The translations under genes were made by a program, and so were the position numbers. Positions 1-34,897 of a DNA stretch of 35,896 bases are shown here, one piece after another. Positions within the stretch are counted from its first letter, which is position 1. Each line of letters opens with the position of its first letter. The stretch comes from a virus, in the IMG/VR virus record IMGVR_UViG_3300034355_000213, positions 1-35,896 of that record; one strand, given 5' to 3'. The notes under the pieces were generated by a model. It ran no database searches. It saw only the letters and a list, made by a program, of their open reading frames with translations, and had not been told where the DNA came from.

Positions 1-2947
1 TTAAAACTCCTGTTTGCCCAAGTGTGGGCGCAACCCTCATGGTTGGTGATATTGTCCCCCAAGCATTCACAGTTGTTGCTGAAGGAGTTGCGCCAGAAAG
101 TTGAGCTGTTATCTGATAATAGCGTTGACACTGTGCCAATTGGTCGGAATATATCTGCCGCTCATACGGCGTTGATATTGAACCGACTTCTAGCTGCACA
201 TTATTCACGTCCCAAGTGCCGCTTGTCTGAGCGCCGACAGTGAACAGGATCTCGATGCCGGTAGTAGCCGCAGCGGGGATGGTAATATTCGTGGTATAGC
301 GTGTAAGCGTGCTAGTTACCGTGAAAGTGCCGGTTGCTATCTGTGTTTTAGTTGGCGTGCCGATAGTGCCGAATGTGTCGGCTGTTGTGGCATAACTGGC
401 TGTCCACGTAACAGTTGTCAAAAGGGAATTGGCAAGTTCGACAGAAAGTGTGGCCGTCTGACCGGCCATATCAATGCTGTTGAGTTGTTCAATACGCTGT
501 CCTACGCCTACTGCCGTAACAGAAGCCGCACCTGTAATTTGAAGAAGGTTTTTATTACTACCTGTTCCTGCTACTTGAGCCGCTGTGACGTTTGCGCCAG
601 TGCTATAAACAAACCATCTATCGACGCAAGGATACCCCGTAGAAGCTGTCGGAACAGCCGTTCCCGCCGTAACTGTAGCTGATGTAGCTCTCTGAGCTAT
701 ATACATATTGCCGTTTATCAGTCGGTTTCTCTTGAAGCTGCTACCCATCGCCAACGTGCCAGTCATCGCCATATTTCCGGCGGTACTAGGCGTGGTCGGC
801 GAGAAGGTCGCGCTGTTTAGCGTCACGTTGTTTTGCGGCGTGAAGCGCATGTCTTCCGTGCCGTTAGTGGTGACAGCTATTGTGTCAGCGGCAGGAAAAT
901 AAATACCCGTATTAGTATCGCCAGTCGTCGTAATACCCGGCGCGCTGACTGTGCCAGCCGGGAAAATAGCCGAGGTCGTGAACGTAGGCGACGTGCCAAA
1001 CACAAGCGCGCCCGTGCCAGTCTCGTCTGTTACAGCAGCGGCTAAATTGGCTGAAGACGGCGTGCCAAGGAATGTTAGGATTTCAGAAGCAGTTGTTGTT
1101 GTAGAAGGCGCTACTCCTGCGCCGCCGCCAACAACTAAAGCATTAGCTGCTAAGGCTGATGATGACGCTAATGTGCCTGTAGCACTGTAATAAAGAACGC
1201 CGCCTGACGTGCCGGACGTTAGACCTGTGCCGCCATTAGCGACAGGTAATGTGCCGGTAGCTTGGTTAACAGGAACATTGGTACAGCTTGATAAGTTGCC
1301 GCTAGATGGTGTGCCAAGAGCGCCGCCGTTGACGACAAACGCTCCGGCAGAGCCTGTATTGACGCCAAGAGCCGTAACGACGCCTGTGCCTGTAGTAACA
1401 GTCGATGGGCCGGTGCCAGATCCACCACCAACAACAAGAGCATTAGTTGTGAGAGCTGCCGCAGGAACAAGAACACCGCCAGCGACATTCGTGTTATTGC
1501 CAAGAGCGGTTAAAACGCCTGTGCCAGTCGTCGTGCCAGAAAGCGTGTTTGTGCCGCTGTAATATGTAATTTGACCGACAGTGCCAGTATTAATTGTTCC
1601 CGACGCAAGGGCCGTCCATGAAAGAACGCCTGCGGTTGTGGATGTAAGCGCATAGCCATTAGATGCAGGGGCAGCAGTAGGAAGTGTGTAAGTAACCGCA
1701 GCGGAAGCATTACCTGCTTGAATCTTTGTAAGATTTGCGCTGGAAGCATTACCTAAAGCAAGAACACCTGTTGCCGTAGAGGCAAGTCCAAGTGTCATTG
1801 TATAAGTAGTTTTATCAAATAAGAAATTAGCCGATGCGCCAAACGATCCAGCATCGTTAAATTGAATTTGTTTGTCGGAGCCAGCGACAGAACCACCGCC
1901 ACCGCCGCCGCCAACAACCCAAGAAGTATTGCCAACACCGTCCGTAGCTAAAACGTATCCATTTGTTCCTGCCGTTGACGGTAGAGTTAATGTCCACGCT
2001 GCGGAAGCACTATTAGATGATTCAATTGTTGTTGAATATGAACCAGCCGCTGTATTGGCTAAAACTAATGAACCTTGCGTTGTCTGTTGTGCGCCAAGCG
2101 TAACAGCCGATGTGAACGTCGGACTAGTTGCGAATACTAGAGGCCCAGATCCCGTCTCATCAGTGACAGCCGACGCGAGATTAGCTGATGATGGCGTCCC
2201 CAGCCATGTAGCAATGCCCGTGCCGAGCGATGTTAACCCAGTGCCACCGTTAGCCGCAGCTAACGTGCCTGCCATTGTAATAGTGCCGGACGTGGTAATT
2301 GGCCCGCCTGAGAACGACAGACCTGTCGAGCCACCGCTAACATCAACGCTGGTCACAGTGCCGAGCGGGTTGGTCGCCCACGACGTATTCGAGCCGTCAG
2401 TCGTTAGATATTTACCGTTGTTACCACCTTGACTTGGCACAAGCGCATTAAACGCGGCGTTGGCTGTCGTTTGACCCGTGCCGCCGTTGGCTATCGGCAG
2501 TGTGCCAGTAACACCTGTAGCGAGCGGCAGACCAGTCGCATTTGTAAGCGTTATCGACGGGCCTGTCGCCAATACGATAGCGCCGGAGCCTGTTGTTGTA
2601 TTGCCGAGCGCCGTGACCGTGCCGCTGGTTGGGAACGTGAGCGTGGTCGTGCCGGAGAAGGTGAAAGTACTCGAATAAGCGCCAGAAGTAATGAATGTTG
2701 AGTTGTCCGCCAGCGTTAGCGTCGCGCCAGTGGCCGGAGCTGTAAACGTAATCTTATTGACAGTGCCGTTTAGGGCTAAATTACCGCTCTTATCAACGAA
2801 AAAAGAGGCCGTTGTGGCCCCTGTAACGGTCAAATTAAGCAGATTAGACGACGCACTAGACGCCGTATTGGTAACGGCTAATTTAATGCCGTTCCATGTA
2901 GTTGCAGCATCATTCCATGTGTCGCTAAGATTATAAATAAAGGCCAT
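1..2947 (-). CDS. Large repetitive tail fibre protein, C-terminus cut off by the window edge
   Basis: The frame is open from the ATG at 2947 to base 1, about 982 codons, with no stop, so the C-terminus is missing. The protein starts MAFIYNLSDTWNDAATTW and is rich in Gly, Thr, Ser and Ala. It carries many short beta repeats of the kind seen in trimeric phage fibres, such as LPVANGGTG, GTGVVTALG and TSPTFT, and a run of seven glycines around 1900. Near 680-735 it reads NRLINGNMYIAQRA followed by VDRW, a motif common at the start of carbohydrate-binding-like C-terminal fibre domains. This suggests a shaft of repeats followed by a receptor-binding head. It is the last gene seen in the leftward packaging/portal operon, 5 bp after a small beta protein. 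The fibre role is inferred from composition and motifs. The receptor is unknown. Confidence 0.85.
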   Translation of the reverse strand, partial: MAFIYNLSDTWNDAATTWNGIKLAVTNTASSASSNLLNLTVTGATTASFFVDKSGNLALNGTVNKITFTAPATGATLTLADNSTFITSGAYSSTFTFSGTTTLTFPTSGTVTALGNTTTGSGAIVLATGPSITLTNATGLPLATGVTGTLPIANGGTGQTTANAAFNALVPSQGGNNGKYLTTDGSNTSWATNPLGTVTSVDVSGGSTGLSFSGGPITTSGTITMAGTLAAANGGTGLTSLGTGIATWLGTPSSANLASAVTDETGSGPLVFATSPTFTSAVTLGAQQTTQGSLVLANTAAGSYSTTIESSNSASAAWTLTLPSTAGTNGYVLATDGVGNTSWVVGGGGGGGSVAGSDKQIQFNDAGSFGASANFLFDKTTYTMTLGLASTATGVLALGNASSANLTKIQAGNASAAVTYTLPTAAPASNGYALTSTTAGVLSWTALASGTINTGTVGQITYYSGTNTLSGTTTGTGVLTALGNNTNVAGGVLVPAAALTTNALVVGGGSGTGPSTVTTGTGVVTALGVNTGSAGAFVVNGGALGTPSSGNLSSCTNVPVNQATGTLPVANGGTGLTSGTSGGVLYYSATGTLASSSALAANALVVGGGAGVAPSTTTTASEILTFLGTPSSANLAAAVTDETGTGALVFGTSPTFTTSAIFPAGTVSAPGITTTGDTNTGIYFPAADTIAVTTNGTEDMRFTPQNNVTLNSATFSPTTPSTAGNMAMTGTLAMGSSFKRNRLINGNMYIAQRATSATVTAGTAVPTASTGYPCVDRWFVYSTGANVTAAQVAGTGSNKNLLQITGAASVTAVGVGQRIEQLNSIDMAGQTATLSVELANSLLTTVTWTASYATTADTFGTIGTPTKTQIATGTFTVTSTLTRYTTNITIPAAATTGIEILFTVGAQTSGTWDVNNVQLEVGSISTPYERQIYSDQLAQCQRYYQITAQLSGATPSATTVNAWGTISPTMRVAPTLGQTGVL
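979..1068 (-). repeat. Internal fibre-gene repeat, copy B
   Basis: This encodes GTPSSANLAAAVTDETG followed by a TSPTFT end. It nearly repeats the stretch at 2113-2203 at the protein level but is diverged in DNA, so it is an old duplication within the fibre shaft. Confidence 0.7.
2113..2203 (-). repeat. Internal fibre-gene repeat, copy A
   Basis: This encodes GTPSSANLASAVTDETG followed by a TSPTFT end. It is the N-terminal partner of the repeat at 979-1068, about 1.1 kb away in the same reading frame. Confidence 0.7.
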
Positions 2948-2952
2948 TTAGG

Positions 2953-3222
2953 TCACTCGTAGAAGATCGTCACATTCGGATTTGTGCCGCCTAAGACAAC
3001 ATAAAGTCCCTTGCTTAACGTGACACCTTCAGGCGGAAATGAGTAATTGCCTGGGACTGCGCCCGTGAAAGTAGATATAACAACAGGATCTGAAGTCGAA
3101 GCCGTCGCTGAATCGTAAACTGCGATGGTTGGCGATGAGCCGGAGCTAACAAAAACGCCTTTAACCTTGGCAAGCCCTATTTTAACTTGCGAAGTGGCCG
3201 TAAGATTTAGAGCATATGCCAT
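2953..3222 (-). CDS. Small beta-rich hypothetical virion protein (89 aa)
   Basis: It begins MAYALNLTATSQVKIGLAKV and has alternating hydrophobic and Thr/Ser/Gly residues, no charged helix, no signal peptide and no membrane segment. It looks like a small all-beta domain. It sits between the DUF5856 gene and the tail fibre gene in the same orientation, with only 5-7 bp on either side, so it is probably co-transcribed with them. A virion accessory or fibre-attachment role is a guess from position. I do not recognise a named family. Confidence 0.75.
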   Translation of the reverse strand: MAYALNLTATSQVKIGLAKVKGVFVSSGSSPTIAVYDSATASTSDPVVISTFTGAVPGNYSFPPEGVTLSKGLYVVLGGTNPNVTIFYE

Positions 3223-9311: not shown

Positions 9312-9456
9312 AAAAAGTTTTATAGCACACAAAAATAAAAAATAAAAAAGTTTGTGCAGTCCCTGCGTAGATATTCCCAGACTGCTCAAGGCCCAGCCCC
9401 CCTGTCTACAATCTCCAGTATACAATTACGTTTACATAAACTAAGTAGACATTTAG

Positions 9457-9478
9457 TTTAGGGCAATTAGGGCAATCG
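9457..9478 (+). repeat. Iteron pair 1 (tandem TTAGGGCAA)
   Basis: Two head-to-tail copies of TTAGGGCAA, with a flanking T before and TCG after. The 22-bp unit is identical to 9666-9687, 209 bp away. Confidence 0.85.
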
Positions 9479-9546
9479 CATTTCAAGTCGCAACCGCATC
9501 ACTGGGGAATTCCCAGGGGAAGTTTGCATCGGTGCTGGCGGGGCGG

Positions 9547-9600
9547 TTAGGGCAGCTAAACGCCCAATCACCCTAAAATATCGCAACACCTACCCTAATC
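9547..9600. repeat. Degenerate iteron half-sites
   Basis: TTAGGGCAG at 9547-9555 faces CCCAATCACCCTAA at 9563-9576 and ACCCTAATC at 9592-9600. These are single, diverged copies of the 9-mer in both orientations, lying between the two perfect pairs. Confidence 0.55.
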
Positions 9601-9665
9601 AGGTATCAGAAAGGTAACTTATAAAACCGCATATAACGCATTGATAACGCCTGAACATCAGCGAT

Positions 9666-9687
9666 TTTAGGGCAATTAGGGCAATCG
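9666..9687 (+). repeat. Iteron pair 2 (tandem TTAGGGCAA)
   Basis: An exact second copy of the 22-bp unit at 9457-9478. It sits directly before the most AT-rich part of the region. Confidence 0.85.
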
Positions 9688-9774
9688 TTTTCGGCGACAT
9701 CTCCTATAGTAATACAATTACTAATATACCAATTATATAGACTATAATATAAGATTTAAGATTAATTATTATTG

Positions 9775-9795
9775 ATTACCCTAATTACCCTAAAA
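9775..9795 (-). repeat. Inverted iteron pair (tandem TTAGGGTAA variant)
   Basis: On the + strand this reads ATTACCCTA twice in tandem followed by AAA. On the minus strand it is TTTTAGGGTAATTAGGGTAA, the same 9-bp period with C changed to T in both units. It lies on the far side of the AT-rich stretch, pointing back at pairs 1 and 2. Confidence 0.8.
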
Positions 9796-9928
9796 CAGAA
9801 CATTAATTAGCAATTACAAAAAGATGCGCCGCCCCACACGATTGCTCTATTTTGCCCTATCACTACCCGTTTAGGGCGATCGCCTTCACTTTTCATTTAC
9901 CTTAAATCAGCCCCCGATAAAAAAGATC

Positions 9929-9958
9929 TTTACAACTTATCCCCATACGTGCTATTTG
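9929..9958 (+). promoter_or_regulatory. Possible sigma70 promoter for the rightward small-gene operon
   Basis: TTTACA (9929-9934) and TGCTATTTG (extended -10, hexamer 9953-9958) are 18 bp apart. The -35 matches 5 of 6 and the -10 only 3 of 6, helped by the TG. A DnaA-box-like TTATCCCCA lies in the spacer, and the first start-associated repeat begins at 9957. This is a weak call. Confidence 0.35.
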
Positions 9959-12629: not shown

Positions 12630-12829
12630 AAACAGGCGCACAAAGACAACTCAAAGACCCCAGCGCGCTCACCCCATACGAGCAGCGCATATGGGAGTTA
12701 CGCCAGCAAGGGTTAGACAATCATCAGATCGGCGCGGCTATGGAGCAATTACCGGCAAGCGTAGCCTCGCGCATGAAAGCCATAAAAGAGAAATTGGAAT
12801 TGCAAGATGCGCTACGCATGGTGGGATAG
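12626..12829 (+). CDS. Small helix-turn-helix protein, sigma region 4/LuxR-type (67 aa)
   Basis: Residues 15-58 (LTPYEQRIWELRQQGLDNHQ, then IGAAMEQLPASVASRMKAI) fit a sigma70 region 4 or LuxR-type helix-turn-helix: a loop of Thr-Pro, a helix with E and W, a turn around GLDNHQIG, and a recognition helix. It is expected to bind DNA and could regulate phage or host transcription. It overlaps the previous stop (ATGA) and the following DnaA-like gene by 23 bp. A similar small HTH protein occurs in the replication operon at 19431-19610. Confidence 0.7.
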   Translation: MKTGAQRQLKDPSALTPYEQRIWELRQQGLDNHQIGAAMEQLPASVASRMKAIKEKLELQDALRMVG

Positions 12830-13151
12830 AGCGACAGAAAAAGAGGGTGATGTGTTCATACGCGACATAATCGCGGAAGTAGCTGATGAATTTCAGCTAT
12901 TCCCGTCAGATATTGTAAGCCACAAAAGGCGAAGCAAGATCGTCAGCGCGCGGCATAAGGCTATGTATCGCGCACGACAAGAAACAGACGCGAGCTACCT
13001 AAAACTAGCGCGCATATTCAAACGCGATCATACAACCGTTATCCACGGTGTTAGATGCTGGAAGGCAAAGTTAGATGGCACACAATACAAAAGAACAAAG
13101 CGCCCTAGCGGTGCTGATAACAGTAATAATCGAAGTTCTACTGGGGCTTAA
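12807..13151 (+). CDS. Stand-alone DnaA domain IV-like DNA-binding protein (114 aa)
   Basis: Residues 30-85 match the C-terminal DNA-binding domain of the bacterial initiator DnaA: PSDIVSHKRRSKIVSARHKA (the basic loop and helices that contact the minor groove), then LARIFKRDHTTVIHGVRCW. The DHTTVIHG recognition helix (74-81) corresponds to DHTTVxHA in DnaA. The AAA+ ATPase and domains I-III are absent. The C-terminus is a polar tail. In DnaA this domain reads 9-bp DnaA boxes. Here it may recruit or block initiation, or act as a transcription factor. It lies at the end of the rightward cluster, close to a terminator. Confidence 0.85.
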   Translation: MRYAWWDRATEKEGDVFIRDIIAEVADEFQLFPSDIVSHKRRSKIVSARHKAMYRARQETDASYLKLARIFKRDHTTVIHGVRCWKAKLDGTQYKRTKRPSGADNSNNRSSTGA

Positions 13152-13871: not shown

Positions 13872-16262
13872 TCACACCCACTTAGGCTTAGACTTAGGCA
13901 TAGGGACAACATTATTGTCTTTAGGCTTCTCATCGTCTTTAGGCTTCTCATCGTATTTAACCTTATTCTCTAACATTTCCCTGAGTTTAGATTTTTTATA
14001 ATCGGCTAACATGTGCGGCGCGCAGAATATGTGCTTCTTGGTCTGATATTCCGGCGTTCCTACAGAGCCGCAATCAATCCAGCCTGCTTCCTTGAGCGCC
14101 TGAAACAGCGCCGCTGGCGGTATCTTCATTTTAGTAGCTGGCGCTTTAGTTGATACAGCTAGATCTTGACAAATCTTATGGAATGGACTGCCAATAACTT
14201 CACGATCAAATGGCGGCTCTTTGTTTCTTATCGCGTCTAAGATGTAACTTTCAGCCAGCGACATGCCGCTCTCGATCAGCGAGGCTTTATAATCGGTCAG
14301 CGGCGGCATCATGCCAGGATTAAACTTAGCCACGTCGCGGTCGTGTAACCACTGAGCGATAGCGTTGAAGCCCTCGCGCTGATACCATGCCGCCATAGCC
14401 GCGCCATCGCGTGGGTGCATACGCGGTGCAGTAGACCACACGCAGAACCAGCGACGGTCGGTTGACTCAAGCGTGATCGGCAGACGATGATTTGTAAACG
14501 CTAGAACGAATAAACGGTTGAGCATGTAATAGGGATGCAAGCCCTTACGGTTGATCGAGATCAGATCCGGCGGCGCAGCGATAAGCGGCTTAAGTTGGTT
14601 AGCCAGCGCGCGGCGTTCGACGGCCTCGCCTTCCTTTAACTCGTTGAGGACAACGATCTCGCTTTCTAAAAGATAGCCCCACTGATTGTTAATTAGCTCG
14701 TTCTTTATCAAGCCATAGTTACGATGAAACGGCCCGCATATACTCCAGATAAACGGTGCCCACATAAGATCCTTACCAGCGCCTTCATCGCCGCCGTGTA
14801 AGACCGCATGGTTTATTTTAATCTTAGGCTTTTGCAGCTTGAACGCCATCATATCAAAAATATGTTCACGCTCGCCAGTCTCAGGGACAAGCAGCTCACA
14901 ATGCTTGTGCCAGCGGTCTATACTCGCGGTTGACGGAACGATAGCTGGGCGCGCTTCAAGCCATTTATTGCCATAGACAAGACCATCGCGCGTAATCGTC
15001 GCATTCTCACCCGATGCGTAAGTGATCTCATCGACAATCTCTGCTCCTTTGGCTTGTCTGTTTTCATCATAAAAAGTCGCTGCCTCAACTTTGCGCCCTG
15101 TGTGAACTGATATGCACTTAGTCCCACGGTAGATGGCGTTAAACGAAGGACGCGACACCTCACGCCGCGTCACCTTATTAAAATAACCATCATCAGTTAC
15201 AACATAAGCCCACTCATCAAACCAAGTCGCGCGGTCTTCTATAGCCTCAGTGCGTCGTTCTGCATCTTCTTGACGAACCTTAGCGTCGTCGGGAAATATA
15301 TCGTTAGGTTCGTTATTGGCGCGCAGCTTTTGACCAAGCTCTGATATAAGCTCACTACGTAGCCCTTGCTTCTCAGATGGGCCACCATTATCAGCGACCC
15401 ATTTTAAAAAATAATTGCTGTCGATCTTATCTCTGCAATGACCGTGAAAACAAAAATAAGATCTCGTCGCAGCGTGATAGCGTCCTTCAATGCCTTCGCT
15501 GTGTTCTTCATGGTTAGGACAGATAACGCTGCGCCAGCCTTCATTGTTGATACTCGTTAAGATTAAATTATTATCGTTCAACCATGCGGTGATGTTATCA
15601 TTACCTGTATCTTTAATCTTTATAGGACGACCGCTCGTTGTATTGGCTTCACCTGGCGTTACATTAAGCGCGGTGCAGATCTGTTCAAGCGTAAACAAAC
15701 GATCTGGATTAAACTCAAGTAATTTAGCTGCAAAATTGTTGCGGCCACGCTTTAAATTAACACTGCCTGGCATACGGAAATTACGAACTGGATTATTTGC
15801 GCCTTTGTCAGTGTAAAGCGCATCAGCTATGGCGTTAATCGCTGCGCTGAACTCATTCGTTGTCGGTTGGTTATCTGGATCAAAAGCATAGCCCCACTGA
15901 ATAGATCCTTCAGATGTTTCCATCTTCCAAGTAGGTTCAAGCGGCGGTATGATTAACTGACCATAATCTTTCAATGATCCAATGTCGTCTAACATCATAA
16001 CAAGAACGTAGTCGCAGTTAGCGGCTGATGCGCTTACTTTACCGTCAACGAAACGCTCTTTTATATAACAGCCTGTGTTACCATACCAAGAGTCGCCTTC
16101 TTTAATGCGCGCTTGTTCAGGTAAAAACGCAGGATAAGTAGACTCCGGCGTTCCGTCGGGGAAGTAATGCACTTCACCGTCACGTTTCTTTAATATCTGT
16201 TTAGTAAAAAGCGCTGTCTCACCATCGAATGAAAGGCTTTTAAGAAAGTCAACAAAAGTCAT
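13872..16262 (-). CDS. Primase-helicase, AEP-type primase with SF3/DUF5906-type helicase (796 aa)
   Basis: It is expected to unwind phage DNA and lay down primers at the fork. Order of parts: an archaeo-eukaryotic-primase-like N-terminus with the acidic strand YVLVMMLDDIG (85-95), SEGSIQWGY (117-125) and NFRMPGSVNLKRG (161-173); a Cys/His zinc site (C248, H251, H254, C271, H273, C276); then a helicase with Walker A GGDEGAGKDL (490-499), a Walker B-like strand SEIVVLNEL (534-542), and the FTNHRLPI / DRRW segment (589-605) typical of DUF5906/VapE-like helicases. I use ATG 16262, which overlaps the polymerase stop as ATGA. An upstream ATG at 16319 lies inside polA. The C-terminus ends in repeated KPKDDEKPKD acidic-basic units. 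Confidence 0.88.
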   Translation of the reverse strand: MTFVDFLKSLSFDGETALFTKQILKKRDGEVHYFPDGTPESTYPAFLPEQARIKEGDSWYGNTGCYIKERFVDGKVSASAANCDYVLVMMLDDIGSLKDYGQLIIPPLEPTWKMETSEGSIQWGYAFDPDNQPTTNEFSAAINAIADALYTDKGANNPVRNFRMPGSVNLKRGRNNFAAKLLEFNPDRLFTLEQICTALNVTPGEANTTSGRPIKIKDTGNDNITAWLNDNNLILTSINNEGWRSVICPNHEEHSEGIEGRYHAATRSYFCFHGHCRDKIDSNYFLKWVADNGGPSEKQGLRSELISELGQKLRANNEPNDIFPDDAKVRQEDAERRTEAIEDRATWFDEWAYVVTDDGYFNKVTRREVSRPSFNAIYRGTKCISVHTGRKVEAATFYDENRQAKGAEIVDEITYASGENATITRDGLVYGNKWLEARPAIVPSTASIDRWHKHCELLVPETGEREHIFDMMAFKLQKPKIKINHAVLHGGDEGAGKDLMWAPFIWSICGPFHRNYGLIKNELINNQWGYLLESEIVVLNELKEGEAVERRALANQLKPLIAAPPDLISINRKGLHPYYMLNRLFVLAFTNHRLPITLESTDRRWFCVWSTAPRMHPRDGAAMAAWYQREGFNAIAQWLHDRDVAKFNPGMMPPLTDYKASLIESGMSLAESYILDAIRNKEPPFDREVIGSPFHKICQDLAVSTKAPATKMKIPPAALFQALKEAGWIDCGSVGTPEYQTKKHIFCAPHMLADYKKSKLREMLENKVKYDEKPKDDEKPKDNNVVPMPKSKPKWV

Positions 16263-18181
16263 TTGCCATACCGCCCCATAACGGAAACTTCTATATTTAA
16301 TGGTAAACCTTCCGCCCATGACGGCGGCGTTTTCATTATTCGTTCTAATGCTTTTTGTGCTTTGTCTGGATTATCTGTTTCAATAACAATTTCATCGTGA
16401 ACGTGTAGAACAGTATCAAAACCTTCATCATCAAGGCAGCGTAAAGCATGGCGTAAAATATCTGCGGCGGTAGCTTGTGTAATATTTTCACAAGCTAATC
16501 CTTTCCATAGTCTTGCACGCGGCCATTGTTTAGCGTCGGCGCTAGGCTTAAATGACGCTTTAGCGTATGTTACCTCTTCTTTGGCGCTATTAAAATCGGC
16601 ATACGGATAGCACAGCCTGCGACCCGAAGGGAGAATATACCAAAGGTGTCTATTCTGCCGCAAGTATTTTACGCGGCCTGCTTCAAACTCCGTGTCGTCA
16701 TTTCGCATAGCGCTTGTGTAGGCTTCTTGTAACGCAGACCAAAAGTCAGCGGCCCAATCATTAGCCTTTCGCCAACCGATGACCATCTGGTTTGCTTCAG
16801 TTTCAGGCAAATCAACGCCGTAGATGCGCCCCATCGCAGCGAACGCGCCAATACCGCCAGCAAATCCACACGCAAGCTCTTGAACTTTACCGATCTGTCG
16901 CTGATCTTTTGTTACTTGATCTTCTGTTATATTAAATGTTTTAGCCGCGTTTACTTTATAAACATCAGCGCCCGTCTCAAACAAAGTTAGTTTGGCTTGA
17001 CCGTTATTGGACAACCACGGAGTTATACGGGCTTCAATGGACGCCCAGTCTGCTACTACAAACTTTTTGTTAGTGGCTGGTATTAACGCGGGGCGTAACA
17101 TACCCTTGAGCACATCTGTGACGCGCTTACCATGTATAGGCACTATCGGTTTACGACGCACCATATCTTGACGAACTGAGTCTGGTTTGTCTGCACACTT
17201 ACGTGCGAAGTTATGCACTTGCGCGCCGTATGATGACGCTCTGCCCGTGGCGCTGCCACCTGCGAATACAAACGCGCCGCGCACACGGTCGTCATCTCCG
17301 GCGAGTTGTTCAAGCCGTTTGAACTTAGCGACCGAGGACGCCCACATATCATCGGCGCATTGTATGACCTCAAGGACATCGGGCGGCACTTGGTCAGGGT
17401 CGCCCATTGACAACAGCGCGGCCCGCACGCTCTTGTCGATAGACGGCTTGTCGTTCTTGACCGCCAGCGCACGCGCATCTGGCCCTAGCCGCGCTAACAC
17501 CCACTCGCGCATCTTAGGACTGCGGACAGATGTGATCGCGCCTTTGGTTATATCAACCACGCGTTTTTGAATATCAACAATCTCTGCATCAGAATAAAGC
17601 AGCGCGGCTTTGCACAGCTTGACATCTACGCGCACGCCTCTGTCGTTGATGCGTTCGTTGACGTGATAATCGGTTAGCTGTTCTTCACTCAACGGTTCGA
17701 TGCGTTGGCTGAAGTCTCGCATAGCGCGAACGTCCTGCGCGCAGTATCTAATTAGACCTTTCATATCTTCGTCAGTGCCTTTAAACGGTGGTGTGCAGAG
17801 CTTCTTAACAAGCGCGCCGCCTTTGTGATCTTTACGCATTGACGCGCCCATGAAGCGCCCGACATCTTCTAACGATCCTGGCATACAGTTAGCGCGTGCC
17901 TGTGCAGAGGTGCAGTAAAAGCGATCTATTGGCATCGGCATACCAAGCACATGCTCTATGATTAGTCGCTCGAAGGCTGCGTTATGCGCGCAGATTTGAT
18001 GGTCTGGAGCGTTAGCGAATATCTTACGCATCTCCGACACGTTCGTCGTGACGTTGACGCTCTCATCATTAAAAGCAAAGGCCATGCACAACACTTGCGT
18101 CGAAGGATGACGAGCGTAGTTATATACGCCCGCCACCTTCAGATCGCACTCGCTCCGCGTTTCAAAGTCTAACCAGATCAT
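16259..18181 (-). CDS. polA: Family A DNA polymerase with 3'-5' exonuclease (640 aa)
   Basis: This is the replicative polymerase of the phage. The proofreading domain has Exo I WLDFETRS (D5, E7), Exo II AHNAAFE (N67, E71 in place of the usual D) and Exo III YCAQD (Y146, D150). The polymerase domain has motif A VADWASIEAR (D378, E383), the O-helix RQIGKVQELACGFAGG (R428, K432, F440) and motif C HVHDE (D596, E597). No 5'-3' exonuclease is present, which is normal for phage enzymes. Aligned to E. coli Pol I, position 762 is Leu (L436 here) and position 766 is Phe. It starts on the stop of an exported-protein gene and its stop overlaps the primase-helicase start. Confidence 0.95.
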   Translation of the reverse strand: MIWLDFETRSECDLKVAGVYNYARHPSTQVLCMAFAFNDESVNVTTNVSEMRKIFANAPDHQICAHNAAFERLIIEHVLGMPMPIDRFYCTSAQARANCMPGSLEDVGRFMGASMRKDHKGGALVKKLCTPPFKGTDEDMKGLIRYCAQDVRAMRDFSQRIEPLSEEQLTDYHVNERINDRGVRVDVKLCKAALLYSDAEIVDIQKRVVDITKGAITSVRSPKMREWVLARLGPDARALAVKNDKPSIDKSVRAALLSMGDPDQVPPDVLEVIQCADDMWASSVAKFKRLEQLAGDDDRVRGAFVFAGGSATGRASSYGAQVHNFARKCADKPDSVRQDMVRRKPIVPIHGKRVTDVLKGMLRPALIPATNKKFVVADWASIEARITPWLSNNGQAKLTLFETGADVYKVNAAKTFNITEDQVTKDQRQIGKVQELACGFAGGIGAFAAMGRIYGVDLPETEANQMVIGWRKANDWAADFWSALQEAYTSAMRNDDTEFEAGRVKYLRQNRHLWYILPSGRRLCYPYADFNSAKEEVTYAKASFKPSADAKQWPRARLWKGLACENITQATAADILRHALRCLDDEGFDTVLHVHDEIVIETDNPDKAQKALERIMKTPPSWAEGLPLNIEVSVMGRYGK

Positions 18182-23922: not shown

Positions 23923-24080
23923 GCGCCCGTGACGTTAAAATCTTTAGCGCCGATAAGACCGATAGCAATTAACGCAGCCTGAAGCGAAGGCCAGTCAAGC
24001 GTCTTAGTCTGCCACGCGTTGAAGAGAACGCCTACAAGAGTAAGGATTCCAGGGATCGTGGTTTTCCAATTCTTAATCAT
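23919..24080 (-). CDS. Small membrane protein, candidate holin (53 aa)
   Basis: It reads MIKNWKTTIPGILTLVGVLF then NAWQTKTLDWPSLQAALIAI and GLIGAKDFNVTGA. Two hydrophobic segments (about 9-22 and 33-45) flank a short loop, and the KNWKTTxxGIL ... GLxxAKDxNVTG frame is common in small phage membrane proteins near endolysins. The Shine-Dalgarno AGGAGG is strong, 9 nt before the ATG. Location between endolysin and spanins supports a holin or holin partner. Proof is lacking. Confidence 0.7.
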   Translation of the reverse strand: MIKNWKTTIPGILTLVGVLFNAWQTKTLDWPSLQAALIAIGLIGAKDFNVTGA

Positions 24081-24178
24081 TCGAGTGTCCTCCTAAAATA
24101 AATGCCAAGCATAAATGCTAGTTTTGCACCGTATGAAATCGAAGCGGCAACCGCGACGATATATACAATTCTATCCAA
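24077..24178 (-). CDS. Possible tiny membrane peptide with TTG start (33 aa)
   Basis: The frame from TTG 24178 reads DRIVYIVAVAASISYGAKLA after the start Met, then FMLGIYFRRTLE, a single hydrophobic helix with a basic end. It overlaps the endolysin stop and its own stop overlaps the holin-like ATG. No ribosome site of its own is visible, and TTG starts are rare, so this may be chance. Confidence 0.35.
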   Translation of the reverse strand: MDRIVYIVAVAASISYGAKLAFMLGIYFRRTLE

Positions 24179-24674
24179 CAAGCGAGAGTATCTGCGCTTT
24201 AACGTCAGCGATACGTGCAGACCAGCCTTTGCCAAACGTAGACCAGATCGACAACGACTGCATGAACGCCAACCGCTTGTTCGTGACGGTCATCGCCACA
24301 TAGGTCTTGGTAGCTTGGATTGTTGCAGGGCCGATTTGACCGTCCTGCGTAACGCCGACAACGGCCTGTAGTGTCTTAGCTGCACGGCTTACGCCGGAAT
24401 TGACAGCAAAGTCGAACACAGCAAAATCAACGCCAGCGGGCAAAAGATCTCCAGAAATACGATCCCAGTATAAGTTCTTGTAAATCGCCGCAACTTCCGA
24501 ATCAGCAATAGCGCGCACGCTCTGCGTTGGGAGATTCTGTGATTTACGCCAACTGTCATAGACCGCTTGCGTAACGCCCTTATTCGTCGGGCCGCCTGGA
24601 TCTTTTGGATGGTCAACGTAGCCGCCCTCATATTTGAGAACCTGCTTAAGCGCCTGTGGATAGTTCTCTTTCAT
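24171..24674 (-). CDS. Endolysin, GH108-type muramidase (167 aa)
   Basis: It cleaves the glycan of peptidoglycan to release progeny. The first part has LKYEGGYVDHPKDPGGPTNK, with E16 as the expected catalytic acid, the signature of glycoside hydrolase family 108. Then YWDRISGDLLPAGVDFAVFD and the C-terminal peptidoglycan-binding stretch (LQAVVGVTQDGQIGPATIQA). No signal peptide or membrane segment is seen, so a holin is needed for export. The ATG at 24674 overlaps the end of the preceding membrane-protein gene by 4 bp. Confidence 0.92.
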   Translation of the reverse strand: MKENYPQALKQVLKYEGGYVDHPKDPGGPTNKGVTQAVYDSWRKSQNLPTQSVRAIADSEVAAIYKNLYWDRISGDLLPAGVDFAVFDFAVNSGVSRAAKTLQAVVGVTQDGQIGPATIQATKTYVAMTVTNKRLAFMQSLSIWSTFGKGWSARIADVKAQILSLVG

Positions 24675-24940
24675 CGCCGGTCTGCTTTCTGGCTTACAAG
24701 ATCTCGAATGGTGTCAAGTTTTGCAAACACTTGATTGAGCACGGTATTAAATTCTTCGCGTGTGATGTAACGGCCAGCAACAAGCACCTCGATCTCACCA
24801 ACCTTTTCGGCCAGTTCTTTATCGGCGGCTTGCAAGTCTTTGACAGCGCCCCAGACGGTATTCAATACCCATCCGCCCAGGACGCCGATCACGCCAACGG
24901 CGACATCAAAAAATACTTGATATTCAGCCATCGGTGTCAT
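24671..24940 (-). CDS. Membrane-anchored coiled-coil protein, possible holin-related (89 aa)
   Basis: It starts MTPMAEYQVFFDVAVGVIGV; a start at the second Met (24931) is possible. One membrane segment (about 9-30) is followed by a coiled coil (AADKELAEKVGEIEVLVAGR) and TREEFNTVLNQVFAKLDTIR. Proteins of this type often sit directly before endolysins in phages and are called holin-like or hypothetical. The ATG overlaps the stop of the ejection-protein gene (ATGA), and the end overlaps the endolysin start. Confidence 0.7.
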   Translation of the reverse strand: MTPMAEYQVFFDVAVGVIGVLGGWVLNTVWGAVKDLQAADKELAEKVGEIEVLVAGRYITREEFNTVLNQVFAKLDTIRDLVSQKADRR

Positions 24941-27633
24941 CTCGCCATCGCGTTTCTGTTTTCGGGGTATAGTGAATTTTGCACTGACATAGCCCCCGTG
25001 ATGGCGGCGCGACCTAAAGTCCGTCGAGTTGATTCAGGTGGTTTAGGTATAGCCTTTTGTGCGGCGCGTTTAGCTGCGCGATCAATCATATCAGCAAATC
25101 TATCGGGGTTTTTTATCATCGCATCGGCGATAATCGCTGCCGTTTTACGATCCGCGAAGTTTTGATACGCAGAATAAAATTTTTCTGTAAGTGTCATTTC
25201 GCGGCTTAACATGCCTTTAAACGCTGACCGAGGCACACCTTCTTTTTCAGCTTCCTCAGTAACCGCTTTAAATGCAGTTGGCGCAGGGCGCGCTTGTGCG
25301 AGCTTTTCAGCTTTATCCAGACGCGCTAATTCATCCGCTACAACTTTAAGATCGGTAAGTTGTTCCTGCGGAAAAGTGTCGGCTAATTTAATAACCATTT
25401 TACCTTGCGGCAAAGGCGCGGCTTTAGCTACTTCCTCTAACGCTTTTTGATTAGCAGCTAAATTTGTTAAACGCATATAATCATTGCGACCAATCGCCAT
25501 GCGAATTGTATCGTCATTTTCACGCAAATATTTTAGCGCATCGTCAGGCTTTTTTGTTCCAATAAAGTTAATCGCGCGGTCTACTATCTCTTTATTGAAC
25601 GCTTCGCGGGCTGGGCCTTCTAGCCGCTGCGTCAGTTCGCCCATGAGCCGCTTGTCGCCAAGAGCTGCCGTCGTAAGCGCCTTTGCGTCGGCATAGCCGC
25701 GAACTCTTGCAGCGCTATCTGTAAGCTCTTGTAAGCCAGTCATTAGCCGCTGCGCTTCCGCGCGGACAGGGCCAAACACTTCGTTAGCGTCAATACCCAT
25801 AATCTCTAGTTGACGGGCATGTTTGCCTACAAAATTGTCAATCTTGCTAGGGTCTATTGCGCCAGTCGTAAAATCAACCGCATCTGCGCGGGCCATATCC
25901 TGAAGGCCCGATGTCATGGCCTGCCGTGCAACAGCATCATTACCAAAGGTTCGCGCGAACTGCGCGGCGTTATCTTCGTTTGCCAAAAACTTAGATACAG
26001 TTTGGCTTGGCAACAAACCCTGTTGGTTCTTCTTTGTTGTGCGTAGGATGTCAGTGACGATACCCTGTCTGTAACGCGGAACAAACTCCGTCCGATAAGT
26101 GTTCAGCGCGTTTTCATACTGGAACTTAGCCTGTTCAGGTATTGCGCGGCTGTCTCTGACTGCGGTGTCAATAGCGCCATGCAATTCATATAAGTCGCCC
26201 ATTGGCTTACCGGCAGCTTGAGCGGCAGCGATGTCTTTATTCACAGATTTACGAACGCGGTCTAATTCGCGTAATGTCGCGCCGCGCTGTAACTCGTTAA
26301 GATCTCGAACAGTCCGCGTAGCTACGCCTAAAGGCACATCAGCTAATCGACCACCAAGAATATTTTCCGCCGTTTGGATAACGCCGCGTGTATCAATCCG
26401 TCTGTTACCAGCGGTTCTAAAAGCGTCTTCATATAAAGGCGTAATGCGCTGCTCACGAAAAGCATCGCGTGTCTCACCAAGACGCTGACTCAACGCCTCT
26501 CCTGGCGCAATCTGACCTGTAGCAGGCATCATCTCGCCTGTAGCGCCGAGCGCCTGACGACCCGCAGCCTCTTCAGTCGCATATTGACGCAATAGCTGAT
26601 TGCGCGTCTCGCTTAACTGCGCCCGCGCTTGCGGAGACATTAACGCGCCTTGTTGCTGTATCTGTGCGTCAATTCGTGCAAGCTGATCTTTAATTGCCTG
26701 TAACCGCGTTTGTTGTGCAATTAACGCTTCTCGCCCCGCTGGCGTAGATACAGAGGAAAGACTTGCTTCGCGGGCGGCTAATCTAGGCTCATACAGTTCA
26801 GCTTCAGCTAATCGCTGGGCCACTGTAGCTGTTGGAGCGCCCGGAGTTACAGGAATATTAGCCCGCGCAGCTCCTGAAACAGCTTGCGGATTAGTCATCA
26901 CGTCGCCGTATAACTGATTCTCTACAACTCGTTCTGCCGCGCGTTGACTGAATGGCGCGAGCACAGAAGGCCCAGCGCGCTCCATTATAGCGCCAACGCC
27001 ACGCACACCCAATTCAGGTATGGCCGCAGGGCTTGTCATACGCGACATTGTTGACAGCGCACCGCTACCAGATAAACCCCCGATACCGCCTGTAAGAGCC
27101 GACACGCCAGCCAACGCACCAAAAGGATCTTGTTTAGCAAATGTCGCGCCGCGTTCAATAGCCTCAACGGGGCTCATAACAGCGCGATTTATTTCACGCG
27201 ATACGGCTGAAGGAATTTGTTGTATTCCTTTCAACGCGGCTGCGCGGCCCTCCGGCGTTGTAAGTCCAATAAGCCCTTCAGCAATGTCATATCCTTTTGC
27301 GCCAAGCCCGACGGCACTTTCAGGGATGTTTCCTATTGCTTCTCCTACACCACCGACAAATTCTTCGGGTGAAATAGCTAGTCTTTCAGCAACATTAACC
27401 AACTTTTTGCCCGCTGGCTCCGCGGCGCGGTAGACATCTTCAAGAAAACCTACTTCGCCTCGCGGCGCTGGCGTTGCTACAGTTAAACCAAAATGATCTA
27501 ATATTTCAGCGTCAGTATGACCGGCTTCACGCGCTTTAGCGCTTTCAGGCCGTGACAAAAGATATTGACGGATCTCTTCATCAGAGTGACCCGCATCTTT
27601 AGCTGCTTTAATACTGGCGGCAAAATCAACCAT
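24937..27633 (-). CDS. Large internal virion/ejection protein (898 aa)
   Basis: It is a long, Ala-rich, mostly helical protein. The N-terminus has a short repeat (KDAGHSDEEIRQYL at 11-24 and REAGHTDAEILDHF at 35-48), often seen at the start of phage ejection proteins. A Gly/Ala-rich stretch around 165-205 is hydrophobic enough to insert into a membrane. The rest is helix with coiled-coil parts (for example 300-360). Its place, third after two other ejection-type genes, fits the P22 gp20/gp16/gp7 set, whose members leave the capsid and form a channel across the periplasm. No lytic transglycosylase motif is apparent. Confidence 0.75.
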   Translation of the reverse strand: MVDFAASIKAAKDAGHSDEEIRQYLLSRPESAKAREAGHTDAEILDHFGLTVATPAPRGEVGFLEDVYRAAEPAGKKLVNVAERLAISPEEFVGGVGEAIGNIPESAVGLGAKGYDIAEGLIGLTTPEGRAAALKGIQQIPSAVSREINRAVMSPVEAIERGATFAKQDPFGALAGVSALTGGIGGLSGSGALSTMSRMTSPAAIPELGVRGVGAIMERAGPSVLAPFSQRAAERVVENQLYGDVMTNPQAVSGAARANIPVTPGAPTATVAQRLAEAELYEPRLAAREASLSSVSTPAGREALIAQQTRLQAIKDQLARIDAQIQQQGALMSPQARAQLSETRNQLLRQYATEEAAGRQALGATGEMMPATGQIAPGEALSQRLGETRDAFREQRITPLYEDAFRTAGNRRIDTRGVIQTAENILGGRLADVPLGVATRTVRDLNELQRGATLRELDRVRKSVNKDIAAAQAAGKPMGDLYELHGAIDTAVRDSRAIPEQAKFQYENALNTYRTEFVPRYRQGIVTDILRTTKKNQQGLLPSQTVSKFLANEDNAAQFARTFGNDAVARQAMTSGLQDMARADAVDFTTGAIDPSKIDNFVGKHARQLEIMGIDANEVFGPVRAEAQRLMTGLQELTDSAARVRGYADAKALTTAALGDKRLMGELTQRLEGPAREAFNKEIVDRAINFIGTKKPDDALKYLRENDDTIRMAIGRNDYMRLTNLAANQKALEEVAKAAPLPQGKMVIKLADTFPQEQLTDLKVVADELARLDKAEKLAQARPAPTAFKAVTEEAEKEGVPRSAFKGMLSREMTLTEKFYSAYQNFADRKTAAIIADAMIKNPDRFADMIDRAAKRAAQKAIPKPPESTRRTLGRAAITGAMSVQNSLYPENRNAMAR

Positions 27634-27639
27634 TTTGAC

Positions 27640-28947
27640 TCACTTAAAAAAATCGCCGACATTTGATTTAGGTGCTTCGCCAGCTTTACCGCGCGGCATA
27701 GTTTGCGCTGTAGGAGCACCACCGCCAAGTAATTTCTTTAACACATCTATAGAGGCGTAACCTTGACTTAATGCTTTAACGCTATCTGGATTAAGCAGAG
27801 CTTGGTCGAGTTTTTCCGATTCTTTAACAGCGTCCATCTGCGTGACGCCCATTTCAAGACCTTTACGAAGCTGCGCTTTAAGAACCGTAGACGCTGTGCG
27901 AAGCGCTGCCAAACGCGCGTTTACTTCGGAATCGCTTAGATTGCCTAATGCTTGGCCGGTCGGACTTTTACGAAACGCAGCTTTCCAATTTTCGGATGTT
28001 GTCGCGCCTGCGCGGGGTATGCCGCCTGCTTCAGCAAGACCCGTTAATTGTTCATCAATAACACTTAAATTGTCACCTATATCCATACGCGCTGACACTT
28101 TTTCGCGGATCGGCCCTGGTGGTAATTGTTTAAGCTGTTCGTCGCGCATAAGTTGTTTTTGAATAATAGGATCAATTTGTTGCTGGCCCATGTCCGTAAC
28201 TAAACGACCCATATTATTAACGCCTCTTTGAGGCGATAACGCATTAGTAGGCGGCAGATATTGTGGTTCTGTAGCTATTGGTGGTTCGCCAAATCGACCC
28301 GTAGGCGTAACAAGAACGTCTCCTGTTTTCATCCCAGATATAGGTTTACGCGCTTGTAGTCGTTCTTCCGGCGTTTCCATAAACCCTTCAAGAGCTTTCA
28401 TATCTGGTTGAGCGCCAAGACGTTTTTGCGCGTATGGCGGAAGCTCTTGATATATCTCAGCATACCGAGCAGACATCGTTTCAGGATCACGCGCCATGAC
28501 CGCGGGAGTGATAAGACGTTGAGCCAGTTTAACATCTTCGGCGGTTGCTTCAGAAGTAGCTTTACGTCCTTCTCCAACTGCCTTTTGTCTTTTATAAGGT
28601 TGTAATTCTTCCTCGCGGCGTTCCGAACCGCGCAATGCAGCTTCTCTCGCTTGTTCGGCATACATGCCTGAGTAAGGCGTCATAAATTTAGCAAACGTGG
28701 TGGGACTTCTTTGAGCTAATCCAGCAAGTGTAGTCCGCGCAAAAGGATCCATTCCTGGCTGCGAATAATACTGGCGAACCATTTCATCTTCGCGCCGAGC
28801 GCGCTCATATTCTTCCAATTGCTGTTGCGCTAATTGTTGTTGTGTAGCGCGCGCGCCCATCATCTGGTATTGCGCCAGCATGTTCGTAAAGTCAGTGGGC
28901 GTATTCGCTAGGGCGTTGCGAGAGGCAATTGTATAATCAATCGGCAT
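27640..28947 (-). CDS. Internal virion (ejection-type) protein (435 aa)
   Basis: It starts MPIDYTIASRNALANTPTDF. The first 60 residues are Gln-rich helix (MMGARATQQQLAQQQLEEYE), the centre is Pro-rich and probably unstructured (200-260), and the C-terminal half is helical with a disordered tail (GGGAPTAQTMPRGKAGEAP). Composition and position between two ejection proteins, in the same direction and with 5-6 bp gaps, suggest an internal virion protein. I do not recognise a named family. Confidence 0.68.
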   Translation of the reverse strand: MPIDYTIASRNALANTPTDFTNMLAQYQMMGARATQQQLAQQQLEEYERARREDEMVRQYYSQPGMDPFARTTLAGLAQRSPTTFAKFMTPYSGMYAEQAREAALRGSERREEELQPYKRQKAVGEGRKATSEATAEDVKLAQRLITPAVMARDPETMSARYAEIYQELPPYAQKRLGAQPDMKALEGFMETPEERLQARKPISGMKTGDVLVTPTGRFGEPPIATEPQYLPPTNALSPQRGVNNMGRLVTDMGQQQIDPIIQKQLMRDEQLKQLPPGPIREKVSARMDIGDNLSVIDEQLTGLAEAGGIPRAGATTSENWKAAFRKSPTGQALGNLSDSEVNARLAALRTASTVLKAQLRKGLEMGVTQMDAVKESEKLDQALLNPDSVKALSQGYASIDVLKKLLGGGAPTAQTMPRGKAGEAPKSNVGDFFK

Positions 28948-28952
28948 TTAAA

Positions 28953-30206
28953 TCACCCTACCCTTGGCGCGCCAAATGTTGGCACGCCCATAAATCCGGG
29001 GCTGTATCCTGGCGCATACGTCGGCCCTCCGCTCAAGTAACCTACCTGCGACGGAGCGTATATAGAAGATCTACCTTGAGGCGCAAAACGATCCGCCATG
29101 CCATATGCCATCATAGCGTTAACTGGCGTGTTAAGCGCGCTCTGAAGCGCTGACGCGCCGCCCATGTAACCTGAAGCGCGGGCAGACGCTGCGTTCTCCA
29201 TGCCGGTCGCATACGGATTAGCTGCCGCTAAAGCCGTCATTTGAGGGCTTGCAAGCCCTGTATACGCGCCTGCTATTGTGCCGCCAGCATTAGAAGCTAG
29301 ATTACCGAGATTAGCTCCAGCCGTCGTTGCAGCCTGTCCTAAATTAGCGCCGGTGCTAAATGCACCTTGAGCGATGTTGCCGCCTGTAGTCAGCGCGGCT
29401 TGGCCGAGGTTAGCGCCGGTCGTAAATCTATTACCGGCTAATTGATTGCCTGTAGTTCCTGCAAGTTGGGATACTGTCCCCGCCGCGCCTGCGCCTGTGC
29501 CAGCAATATTTTGCAGCCCTTGGGTAACAGCTAACCGATTAGCCATAAAACGATTATAAGCATTGCCATATTCTTGACTTGCTAAACCTTGACCAAAACG
29601 CTCGGCTGCTTTTAATGCGCCGCCTGACCCCGCTGTGCCGCCAGCGCGAGCCATATTGAGCATAGATTGTTGACCCTGTTGTTTAAGAAATTCATACGCA
29701 GGGTCTAATTGAAGTTGTTCATACGTAGGCTGTTGTGTATATTCGCCGCCCTGTCCATACAGTGCTGATAGACGATTAATTGCGCCTGCGCCCGTGGTCG
29801 TATAAGGCTCTTGAGCTGCTACGCCTTGGCCGTAAAATTGGCGGGCTATATCTTCGCCCTGTTGGGCTTGGCCTAAAATATCTGCGCGGCCACGGCCATA
29901 ATAATCTGTTAGCGCCCCAGCGCCTCTACCATAATAGTCCTCTAAATCCTGTCGGCCTTTGCCATAAAACTCTCTTACGTCGCCAGTGCCTTTATCATAA
30001 AATTCACGGCTTGCCGCTGCGCCTTTCTCGGCCATCTGGCGCGCTTGCTCAAGCGCTTGTTGTTGAGCGATATAACCCAACATGCCACCCGTTTGAGCGG
30101 CCTGCGCCTGTGTGCCTGCCGCACGCTGTGAAGCCGCATAGCCAGCCCCGCTACTGAGCGCGCTTGCTGCGGTGCTTCCTAAAAGGGCTAGTGTGAACGG
30201 ATCCAT
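28953..30206 (-). CDS. DNA-transfer protein, P22 gp7-like ejection protein (417 aa)
   Basis: It starts MDPFTLALLGSTAASALSSG and is rich in Gly, Ala, Gln and Tyr. The centre holds four or more 10-11-residue repeats ending in GRG or GKG with FY or YY (REFYGKGRQDLEDYYGRG, then LTDYYGRGRADI), followed by Gly/Ala-rich repeats (TTGANLGQAA and variants). This matches phage DNA-transfer proteins carried inside the head and ejected with DNA. AAGAGGC provides a good ribosome site before the ATG at 30206. Confidence 0.78.
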   Translation of the reverse strand: MDPFTLALLGSTAASALSSGAGYAASQRAAGTQAQAAQTGGMLGYIAQQQALEQARQMAEKGAAASREFYDKGTGDVREFYGKGRQDLEDYYGRGAGALTDYYGRGRADILGQAQQGEDIARQFYGQGVAAQEPYTTTGAGAINRLSALYGQGGEYTQQPTYEQLQLDPAYEFLKQQGQQSMLNMARAGGTAGSGGALKAAERFGQGLASQEYGNAYNRFMANRLAVTQGLQNIAGTGAGAAGTVSQLAGTTGNQLAGNRFTTGANLGQAALTTGGNIAQGAFSTGANLGQAATTAGANLGNLASNAGGTIAGAYTGLASPQMTALAAANPYATGMENAASARASGYMGGASALQSALNTPVNAMMAYGMADRFAPQGRSSIYAPSQVGYLSGGPTYAPGYSPGFMGVPTFGAPRVG

Positions 30207-30220
30207 AATGCCTCTTTATA

Positions 30221-30487
30221 TCATGAGTTACTTAAAAATCTAACTGTTGGTGCCTGTGCAACGCCAACGACCTCATTACGGAATGACTCAGTTGCCGCTG
30301 CGCCCTGACGGACTTCTTTGGCGACTTCAATCTGAAGCATAGGTAGCGCCGCCACAGCGCAAACCCACTCGTCTACTTCTTTGCCCGTGTTGGGGTTTGT
30401 GCCCCGTAACAATGTGAACCACGCGCATTTTAACTGCACGCAGTCTTTCTTAATCAAAGGGCAAAAAGTTCCGTTTTTCAGTTCCAT
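30221..30487 (-). CDS. Conserved Cys-containing hypothetical protein (88 aa)
   Basis: It starts MELKNGTFCPLIKKDCVQLK with cysteines 9, 16, 21 and 43 (CPLIKKDCVQLKC, then VCAVA), which could bind a metal or iron-sulfur centre. The GTNPxTGKExDEWxC and ESFRNE segments recur in small phage proteins located beside tail genes. It lies 1-2 bp after the tail fibre/tip gene. The C-terminus ends VRFLSNS. Its function is unknown. Confidence 0.72.
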   Translation of the reverse strand: MELKNGTFCPLIKKDCVQLKCAWFTLLRGTNPNTGKEVDEWVCAVAALPMLQIEVAKEVRQGAAATESFRNEVVGVAQAPTVRFLSNS

Positions 30488-30488
30488 G

Positions 30489-31649
30489 TTAATTCTTCGT
30501 TGCGATGATTACGTCTACATACTGAACAGCAAGATTAATACTTGGTGCGCTGAAGCCGTGAGCGTGGCCACCCCCGCCGCCCGTATTGGAGATAGAAGTG
30601 GATGCGCTAAGACTGGCATATCCAGTGCCTGTGGTGCCTGTCTGATTACCAGTATATGAAGCGCCAACAGCAAGACCACCTGAACCACCAGCGACAATAA
30701 CGCCGCCGAATGTATGAGTATGTCCGCTGTCTGATACCGATGTAGACGCGCTATGGTTATGTGAAGGTATATCAGCGGTCGTCAGTGTATAGCTGGCAAC
30801 AGTGCCAGTGACAGCTTGAGACGCAAAAGCCGTTGTGAAAGCTACCGAACCGCCTGACGACGCTGCGCCAGATACGACGCGGAGCGCTTTGTTGTCGTGC
30901 GTGGTTGATTTCGTCCAGCCTGTCGGAGCGGTCGTTTGAGCAAACAACATCGCCGTGCCGGACGGTATATTCGCCCATGCGCCGGTAAAGCTAGTCGCCG
31001 TAACAGATCCAGTAAAGGTAGATCCGCTAGAGTTAATAGTAAGCCGCGTTCCGGCGTTAGTCTTAACCGTAAAATTACGGTCGTCGCTTACATCAAATAT
31101 AGAGTCTGTAGAATCCGCTGACATGACTGTGCGAGACACGCCGCCAGATGTCGAGATCTGAATAGCGCCGCCAGCTACGTCAATAGCGTTTGCGGGTGTT
31201 GCGGTGCCAATACCTACCTGACCTGTCGTGTCAACAACAAATGGCGATGAGTCAGGATCGGCTGAATCTTGCACTCTGATAGCCGCGCCTGCGCCCGTTT
31301 GCGTAACGAGAAGCGCTGGGCCGGAGGTATTGGCCGAGATCGTGACGTTACTGGAAAAGACCGGCGACAACGCCGTCGATGGCGCGGCGATATTATCGAC
31401 CGTCCAAATCTCAGTGCCTTCGGAGTTTGTCAGTTTAAATTTATAGTTAGCCGACGACAACCAAATATTAGCTTCGCCACGCGAATCCAACACAATAGGA
31501 TTGCTGTTCGCCGTCGCTGCGGTTGAGTCCGTGTAGGTCGCCTGCGGCGTGGTCGTGCCAGCTTCATAAGTATAGAGAAAACCGCCTGCCAGCGGTATGC
31601 CTGCGGCGTCAATAAACTGAGCTTTAGCGGTGGGCGATACAACAGCCAT
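30489..31649 (-). CDS. Tail fibre/tip protein with head-binding and collar-type domains (386 aa)
   Basis: The N-terminus (FIDAAGIPLAGGFLYTYEAG, then TYTDSTAATANSNPIVLDSR) resembles phage fibre virion-attachment domains that begin with a short beta segment of this type. The middle has QVGIGTATPANAIDVAGG, typical of fibres. The C-terminus has PSGTAMLFAQTTAPTGWTKS and metal-binding-like IPSHNHS, GHTHTF and GHAHGF, as in tail-collar/short-tail-fibre tips that hold iron through His-x-His. It ends NLAVQYVDVIIATKN. It is probably a receptor-binding or stabilising spike. It starts 1 bp from the 202-aa gene. Confidence 0.82.
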   Translation of the reverse strand: MAVVSPTAKAQFIDAAGIPLAGGFLYTYEAGTTTPQATYTDSTAATANSNPIVLDSRGEANIWLSSANYKFKLTNSEGTEIWTVDNIAAPSTALSPVFSSNVTISANTSGPALLVTQTGAGAAIRVQDSADPDSSPFVVDTTGQVGIGTATPANAIDVAGGAIQISTSGGVSRTVMSADSTDSIFDVSDDRNFTVKTNAGTRLTINSSGSTFTGSVTATSFTGAWANIPSGTAMLFAQTTAPTGWTKSTTHDNKALRVVSGAASSGGSVAFTTAFASQAVTGTVASYTLTTADIPSHNHSASTSVSDSGHTHTFGGVIVAGGSGGLAVGASYTGNQTGTTGTGYASLSASTSISNTGGGGGHAHGFSAPSINLAVQYVDVIIATKN

Positions 31650-34854: not shown

Positions 34855-34867
34855 TTGTTACTTTCTA

Positions 34868-34897
34868 TAAAAATACAGCGGCCCGTAGGCCGCTATA
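34868..34897 (-). terminator. Intrinsic terminator after the 115-aa virion gene
   Basis: A 10-bp stem (34888-34897 with 34874-34883, one G-T pair) with a TACG tetraloop on the minus strand, followed by TTTTTA (34873-34868). This is a strong intrinsic terminator shape. Read-through must still supply the tail genes unless another promoter exists. Confidence 0.82.

Follow-up and report, generated by a model that had tools for sequence, protein, structure and literature searches.

A probable phage replication origin whose iterons co-vary with the C-terminal wing of the encoded primase-helicase

The locus described here raises the question of what function an array of short repeats has in a gene-free gap of a viral genome and which protein reads it. 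The stretch of DNA analyzed (hereafter, the window) comprises the 35,896 nucleotides of virus record IMGVR_UViG_3300034355_000213, which encodes a P22-type portal, a terminase, a family A polymerase, a DUF5906 primase-helicase, an exonuclease, and a helicase. The phage genome is apparently lytic, and no integrase was seen among the scanned proteins, which represent part of the open reading frames (ORFs) of the window. The repeats very probably mark the start of phage DNA replication, and we consider it highly likely that the array is a replication origin whose iterons are bound, and whose core is melted, by the phage's own primase-helicase. The initial annotation had likened the arrangement to an origin, a reading that is now well supported by about 100 relatives in which the position and layout of the array are conserved, by its AT-rich core, and by co-variation with the primase-helicase. 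The repeat follows this protein, which is the candidate initiator.

With up to one mismatch allowed, the whole window contains 22 TTAGGGYAA-like sites (12.4 ± 3.3 in shuffled sequences), 12 of which lie within the 448 bp from 9458 to 9905, where about 0.15 would be expected. Simple arithmetic gives a probability on the order of 1e-18 for this clustering in an interval picked post hoc. All six exact TTAGGGYAA copies of the window belong to the array, the remaining ten sites are dispersed singles, and no second iteron cluster was found. Along the array, tandem 9-bp repeats on one strand are followed by the AT-rich core and an inverted tandem pair (Table 1). The two identical 22-bp units TTTAGGGCAATTAGGGCAATCG (starts, 9457 and 9666; spacing, 209 bp) and the inverted pair of TTAGGGTAA past the AT-rich stretch were found as previously annotated, as was the absence of genes from the gap, which extends from the terminase small subunit gene (terS; start at about 9320, minus strand) to a small conserved plus-strand ORF (about 9984). 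The array itself is thus real, but its right limit, originally placed at 9884, lies slightly further out, as the last site reaches 9905. The cumulative GC skew of the window has just a local minimum near 10 kb, which tracks gene orientation and speaks neither for nor against an origin, and Rfam, tRNA, and promoter scans of the window yielded nothing useful.

Table 1. Coordinates of the array and of associated features in the window
Feature	Position	Strand	Basis or remark
Iteron pair 1, TTAGGGCAA twice, 9-bp period	9458..9475	+	Exact; same layout in L005, L008, L049, L052
Degenerate single iteron	9547..9555	+	1 mismatch
Degenerate single iteron	9568..9576	-	Exact TTAGGGTAA with equal spacing in L005/L008
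Degenerate single iteron	9590..9598	-	1 mismatch
Iteron pair 2, left edge of AT-rich core	9667..9684	+	Exact matches
AT-rich core, proposed melting site	9687..9772	.	79% AT vs 57% in flanks; same position relative to convergent pairs in relatives
Inverted iteron pair, TTAGGGTAA twice, right edge of core	9776..9793	-	Exact matches
Degenerate single iteron	9852..9860	-	1 mismatch
Single iteron TTAGGGCGA	9871..9879	+	Exact TTAGGGCAA in L005/L008
Single iteron TTAAGGTAA	9897..9905	-	Exact TTAGGGTAA in L005/L008
Weak -35-like TTTACA, putative early promoter beside array	9929..9934	+	Reading of sequence; low confidence
Primase-helicase (DUF5906), proposed initiator	13872..16256	-	794 aa from conserved start; longer ATG at 16319
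C-terminal winged-helix-like domain, residues 655-765	13962..14294	-	Order of helices and strands in AF2 models
Wing loop, residues 731-742, SVGTPEYQTKKH, proposed reading head	14031..14066	-	Best 14-aa segment 732-745; MI pairs; residue/iteron table
Family A DNA polymerase, same replication module as primase-helicase	16259..18181	-	PF00476, 2e-19

A similar array is present at the same genome place in about 100 uncultivated relatives, often with a different 8- to 10-bp repeat, e.g., TTTGGGTCAT, TGTGGACAAT (as in L200), TTGGCAAT, CATAGTCAT, and further types. The closest annotated record, MW202483, stems from an uncultured podovirus of a spring and is the sole phage-collection record with a homologue over at least 80% of the primase-helicase; none of the relatives found is cultured. 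Several relatives have been binned with metagenome-assembled genomes of freshwater Betaproteobacteria, which is weak as host evidence. Wherever the primase-helicase is 77 to 100% identical and the gap is readable, a TTAGGGYAA-type array occupies the same place, and its spacing closely resembles that of the window in L005, L008, L048, L049, and L052; at identities of 57% or below, the same place holds other iterons. The search for the 9-mer array in relatives, set beforehand as a refutation test, located it at the same place in the close ones.

An alignment scan with the primase-helicase added nearly 80 loci, and motifs were found from tandem pairs on both strands and then brought into a shared register. 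Motif calling was automatic and, with 23 of about 120 loci dropped by eye as unclear, provided 98 usable arrays, nearly all of which can be superimposed, with G-Y-N-R-T or something close to it after a left part that varies. In the 83 loci with a convergent gap of suitable size, the mean AT content was 0.64 in the core versus 0.52 in the flanks, and the core exceeded the flanks in 75 loci (p, 1e-11). The 70 bp richest in AT are centered at most 40 bp from the middle of the core in 54 of the 83.

The part of the primase-helicase that the repeat follows was localized with 333 close locus pairs, in which residues 1 to 640 of this protein are at least 75% identical. Among all 14-residue segments, residues 732 to 745 predict the iteron distance best (rho, -0.766), followed by the next nonoverlapping segment at -0.549 (median, -0.226), and a permutation of the motifs across locus labels gave -0.003 ± 0.056. 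The best segments of control proteins reached -0.33 (terS), -0.26 (terL), and -0.30 (polymerase) on the same pairs. The identity of the exonuclease correlates as well (rho, -0.52 on 77 pairs; best segment, -0.68), but less than the wing does on these 77 pairs (-0.76); the signal of the exonuclease was put down to linkage. An earlier whole-family Mantel analysis with first-pass motifs was too noisy to point to a gene or domain, whereas better motifs and close pairs did so. Across the distant pairs of the whole family, co-variation is not specific to the wing. Within the clade to which the window belongs (25 pairs with DnaA-like genes), no wing signal is present because the iteron hardly varies there; the wing signal stems from the wider family.

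Individual positions of the wing can be connected to individual bases. The top two of about 10,000 APC-corrected MI pairs link position 735 (P735) to motif column 1 and position 733 (G733) to column 3. An Arg735 is accompanied by the G in TGT in 28 of 29 rows, versus 2 of 49 rows without it, and among the Arg735 rows the next G (TGTG) occurs in 24 of 24 with Lys733 and in 0 of 5 with other residues, while in column 5 Asp738 is paired with A and not with G in 12 of 16. On a tree of residues 1 to 645, i.e., with the C-terminal domain left out, the independent contrasts agree in 4 to 5 of 5 cases for Arg735, 4 to 5 of 6 for Asp738, and 2 to 3 of 6 for Lys733, with none opposed; these contrasts are few, and the individual sign tests have p values of 0.06 or above. 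The loci L220 and L196 are 99% identical over residues 1 to 640, yet their wings differ and so do their iterons. Further APC-corrected MI hits between column 6 and the C-terminal tail (residues 769 to 780) were discarded, as they reflect the insertion of one clade and not a contact. In L206, a partial TGTGGACAAT array is located beside a complete TTTGGGTCAT array, both in the region that begins about 180 and ends about 760 bp ahead of terS. The wing of L206 belongs to the TTTGGG type and fits the complete array, and the double array looks like a recombination remnant.

The primase-helicase matches the profiles PF19263 (1.1e-9) and PHROG DNA primase (3.6e-19), and its AF2 model has a pLDDT of 79.7. 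Among the Foldseek matches listed, the fold is nearest to the NrS-1 primase-helicase (CTR, 7.7e-15), with PriRep1 (1.6e-7) and poxvirus D5-type helicases lower; P4 alpha is absent from the 50 matches listed. The N-terminal part resembles the AEP domain of the S-2L PrimPol (2.6e-7). The C-terminal domain is predicted to be a winged helix from the order of its secondary-structure elements, and in the AF2 model the segment of residues 732 to 745 coincides in part with a loop that joins two strands of this domain. When searched in isolation, the domain retrieved weak winged-helix matches alone with Foldseek (best E value, 0.12; none significant) and a single chance match in the PDB profile search.

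Other readers of the repeat have to be weighed against the primase-helicase. The initial annotation had proposed the DnaA-like and helix-turn-helix (HTH) proteins, but they were not detected in 61 and 64, respectively, of the 78 loci with an array in which both terS and the primase-helicase are present, absence being defined as no tblastn match at 1e-3 with the window protein, which diverged forms may escape. Both are very unlikely readers of the repeat. The repeat follows neither the identity of the DnaA-like protein, with a different repeat in L051 (84% identity) and the same one in L053 (66%), nor that of the 67-aa HTH protein, the terminase, or the polymerase genes. An origin at which the 9-mers serve as variant DnaA boxes for the DnaA domain IV-like protein (12807 to 13151) is consequently very improbable, even if the protein has a Bac_DnaA_C match of 4.9e-20, the repeat is a 9-mer, and a DnaA-box-like TTATCCCCA at 9937 as well as a perfect TTATCCACA in L004 were found. 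Its stretch RDHTTV presumably matches the recognition stretch of bacterial DnaA, whereas the iterons are not DnaA boxes. The number of DnaA-box-like sites in the window is below chance, with one near the array.

The array lies directly beside terS in every locus read, as would suit a pac site at which the neighboring terminase small subunit recognizes the repeats for packaging. This explanation is hardly credible, given that the repeat does not follow terS identity (L014, 77% and same repeat; L055, 84% and different repeat) and that even the best terS segment has a rho of only -0.33. An operator array without origin function, at which a transcriptional regulator, possibly the primase-helicase, controls divergent early and terminase promoters, would agree with the position in a divergent gap beside the putative early promoter, from which the sites at 9871 and 9897 are at most about 60 bp away. 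It is nevertheless unlikely, since the repeat co-varies with a replicative primase-helicase and the layout places an AT-rich core between convergent pairs. The array could conceivably serve autoregulation as a side role. The promoter scan did not pick up the TTTACA at 9929 to 9934, and L055 and L127 have better promoter-like sequences at its place.

For the preferred reading, i.e., an origin recognized by the primase-helicase, we propose that several copies of this protein, an archaeo-eukaryotic-type primase fused to an SF3/D5-like helicase, would bind the 9-bp iterons via the wing of the C-terminal winged-helix domain. The iteron sets facing each other across the core of about 90 bp may position helicase assemblies, which would melt the core, load, and unwind the DNA, so that the array would serve as the start of replication, and the primase-helicase would then prime the DNA for the family A polymerase of the phage.

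Such a system would work like the origins of PICI/SaPI elements and P4, yet it is neither PICI nor P4-type. In PICI origins, an AT-rich region is invariably enclosed by two iteron sets, an organization that has been described as peculiar to these satellites (PMC6092414), and SaPI Rep and Cch2 recognize iterons via their C-terminal domain (PMC7581432). In the window, too, two iteron sets flank an AT-rich region, the primase-helicase is related in fold to SaPI5 PriRep1 (PDB 7pds; Foldseek, 1.6e-7), and, judging from the co-variation, iteron specificity would reside in the C-terminal domain of the initiator. However, the PICI origin is located directly 3' of the rep gene, whereas the phage array is found about 4 kb from the gene end at 13872, in the gap between terminase and early genes, and PICIs are satellites with an integrase and an incomplete virion set, whereas the window encodes a terminase and a P22-type portal. 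The system is not a PICI, since it carries virion genes and its origin does not lie immediately 3' of the gene. According to PMC4234260 (citing Yeo 2002 and Ziegelin and Lanka 1995), a winged helix is the part of P4 alpha that binds the repeats of the origin, and P4 alpha resembles the proposed phage system in that a single protein binds the repeats, unwinds, and primes. The primase of P4 alpha is of the TOPRIM type, whereas the primase part of the phage protein resembles an archaeo-eukaryotic PrimPol, and because of this different domain the system is not P4-type. P4 has two sites, ori and crr, as opposed to the one iteron cluster found in the window. SCCmec Cch2 is likewise a D5-type helicase whose C-terminal domain binds direct repeats (PMC7581432), but it differs by three 5-nt iterons, a separate primase, and its location on a mobile cassette rather than a phage. 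Bacterial oriC shares the 9-bp repeats beside an AT-rich stretch and a DnaA-like protein encoded nearby; the phage repeats, however, differ from TTATNCACA and do not follow the DnaA-like protein.

In the literature searched, no earlier account of phage origins of this kind was found. The finding would place the origin of these phages and extends the PICI-like organization to a phage clade known from uncultivated genomes only. The novelty likely lies in a natural data set for the initiator-iteron recognition code, as dozens of iteron sequences are matched to wing sequences, and the iterons of unseen relatives may become predictable from the protein sequence. More tentatively, iterons and initiator wing might diversify together at a fixed genome position in this large clade, which is known from environmental sequences only, by a simple residue-to-base code, perhaps under competition among co-infecting phages or satellites, each of which could otherwise exploit the initiator of another; L206 would then be the fossil of a switch.

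Several minor features were noted in and around the gap. The palindrome GTTTACATAAAC, probably read by a dimeric regulator, has one exact copy in the window (9430 to 9441). In regions 1 to 3000 and 24000 to 35896, the ORF list contains many long ORFs on the strand facing probable minus-strand genes; these ORFs are mechanical and provide no evidence for genes. The DnaA domain IV-like protein lacks the remaining DnaA parts and may regulate early transcription; the box-like site (9937 to 9945) lies beside the array and the putative early promoter, and that of L004 directly downstream of the array. In L002, L054 to L061, and L067, a separate array of roughly 10 to 20 GTTTAC-type sites, probably read by a dimeric regulator, is located between terS and the iterons. 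This GTTTACAT array was rejected as an iteron, and most of these loci have TTGGGTAGT-type iterons further downstream.
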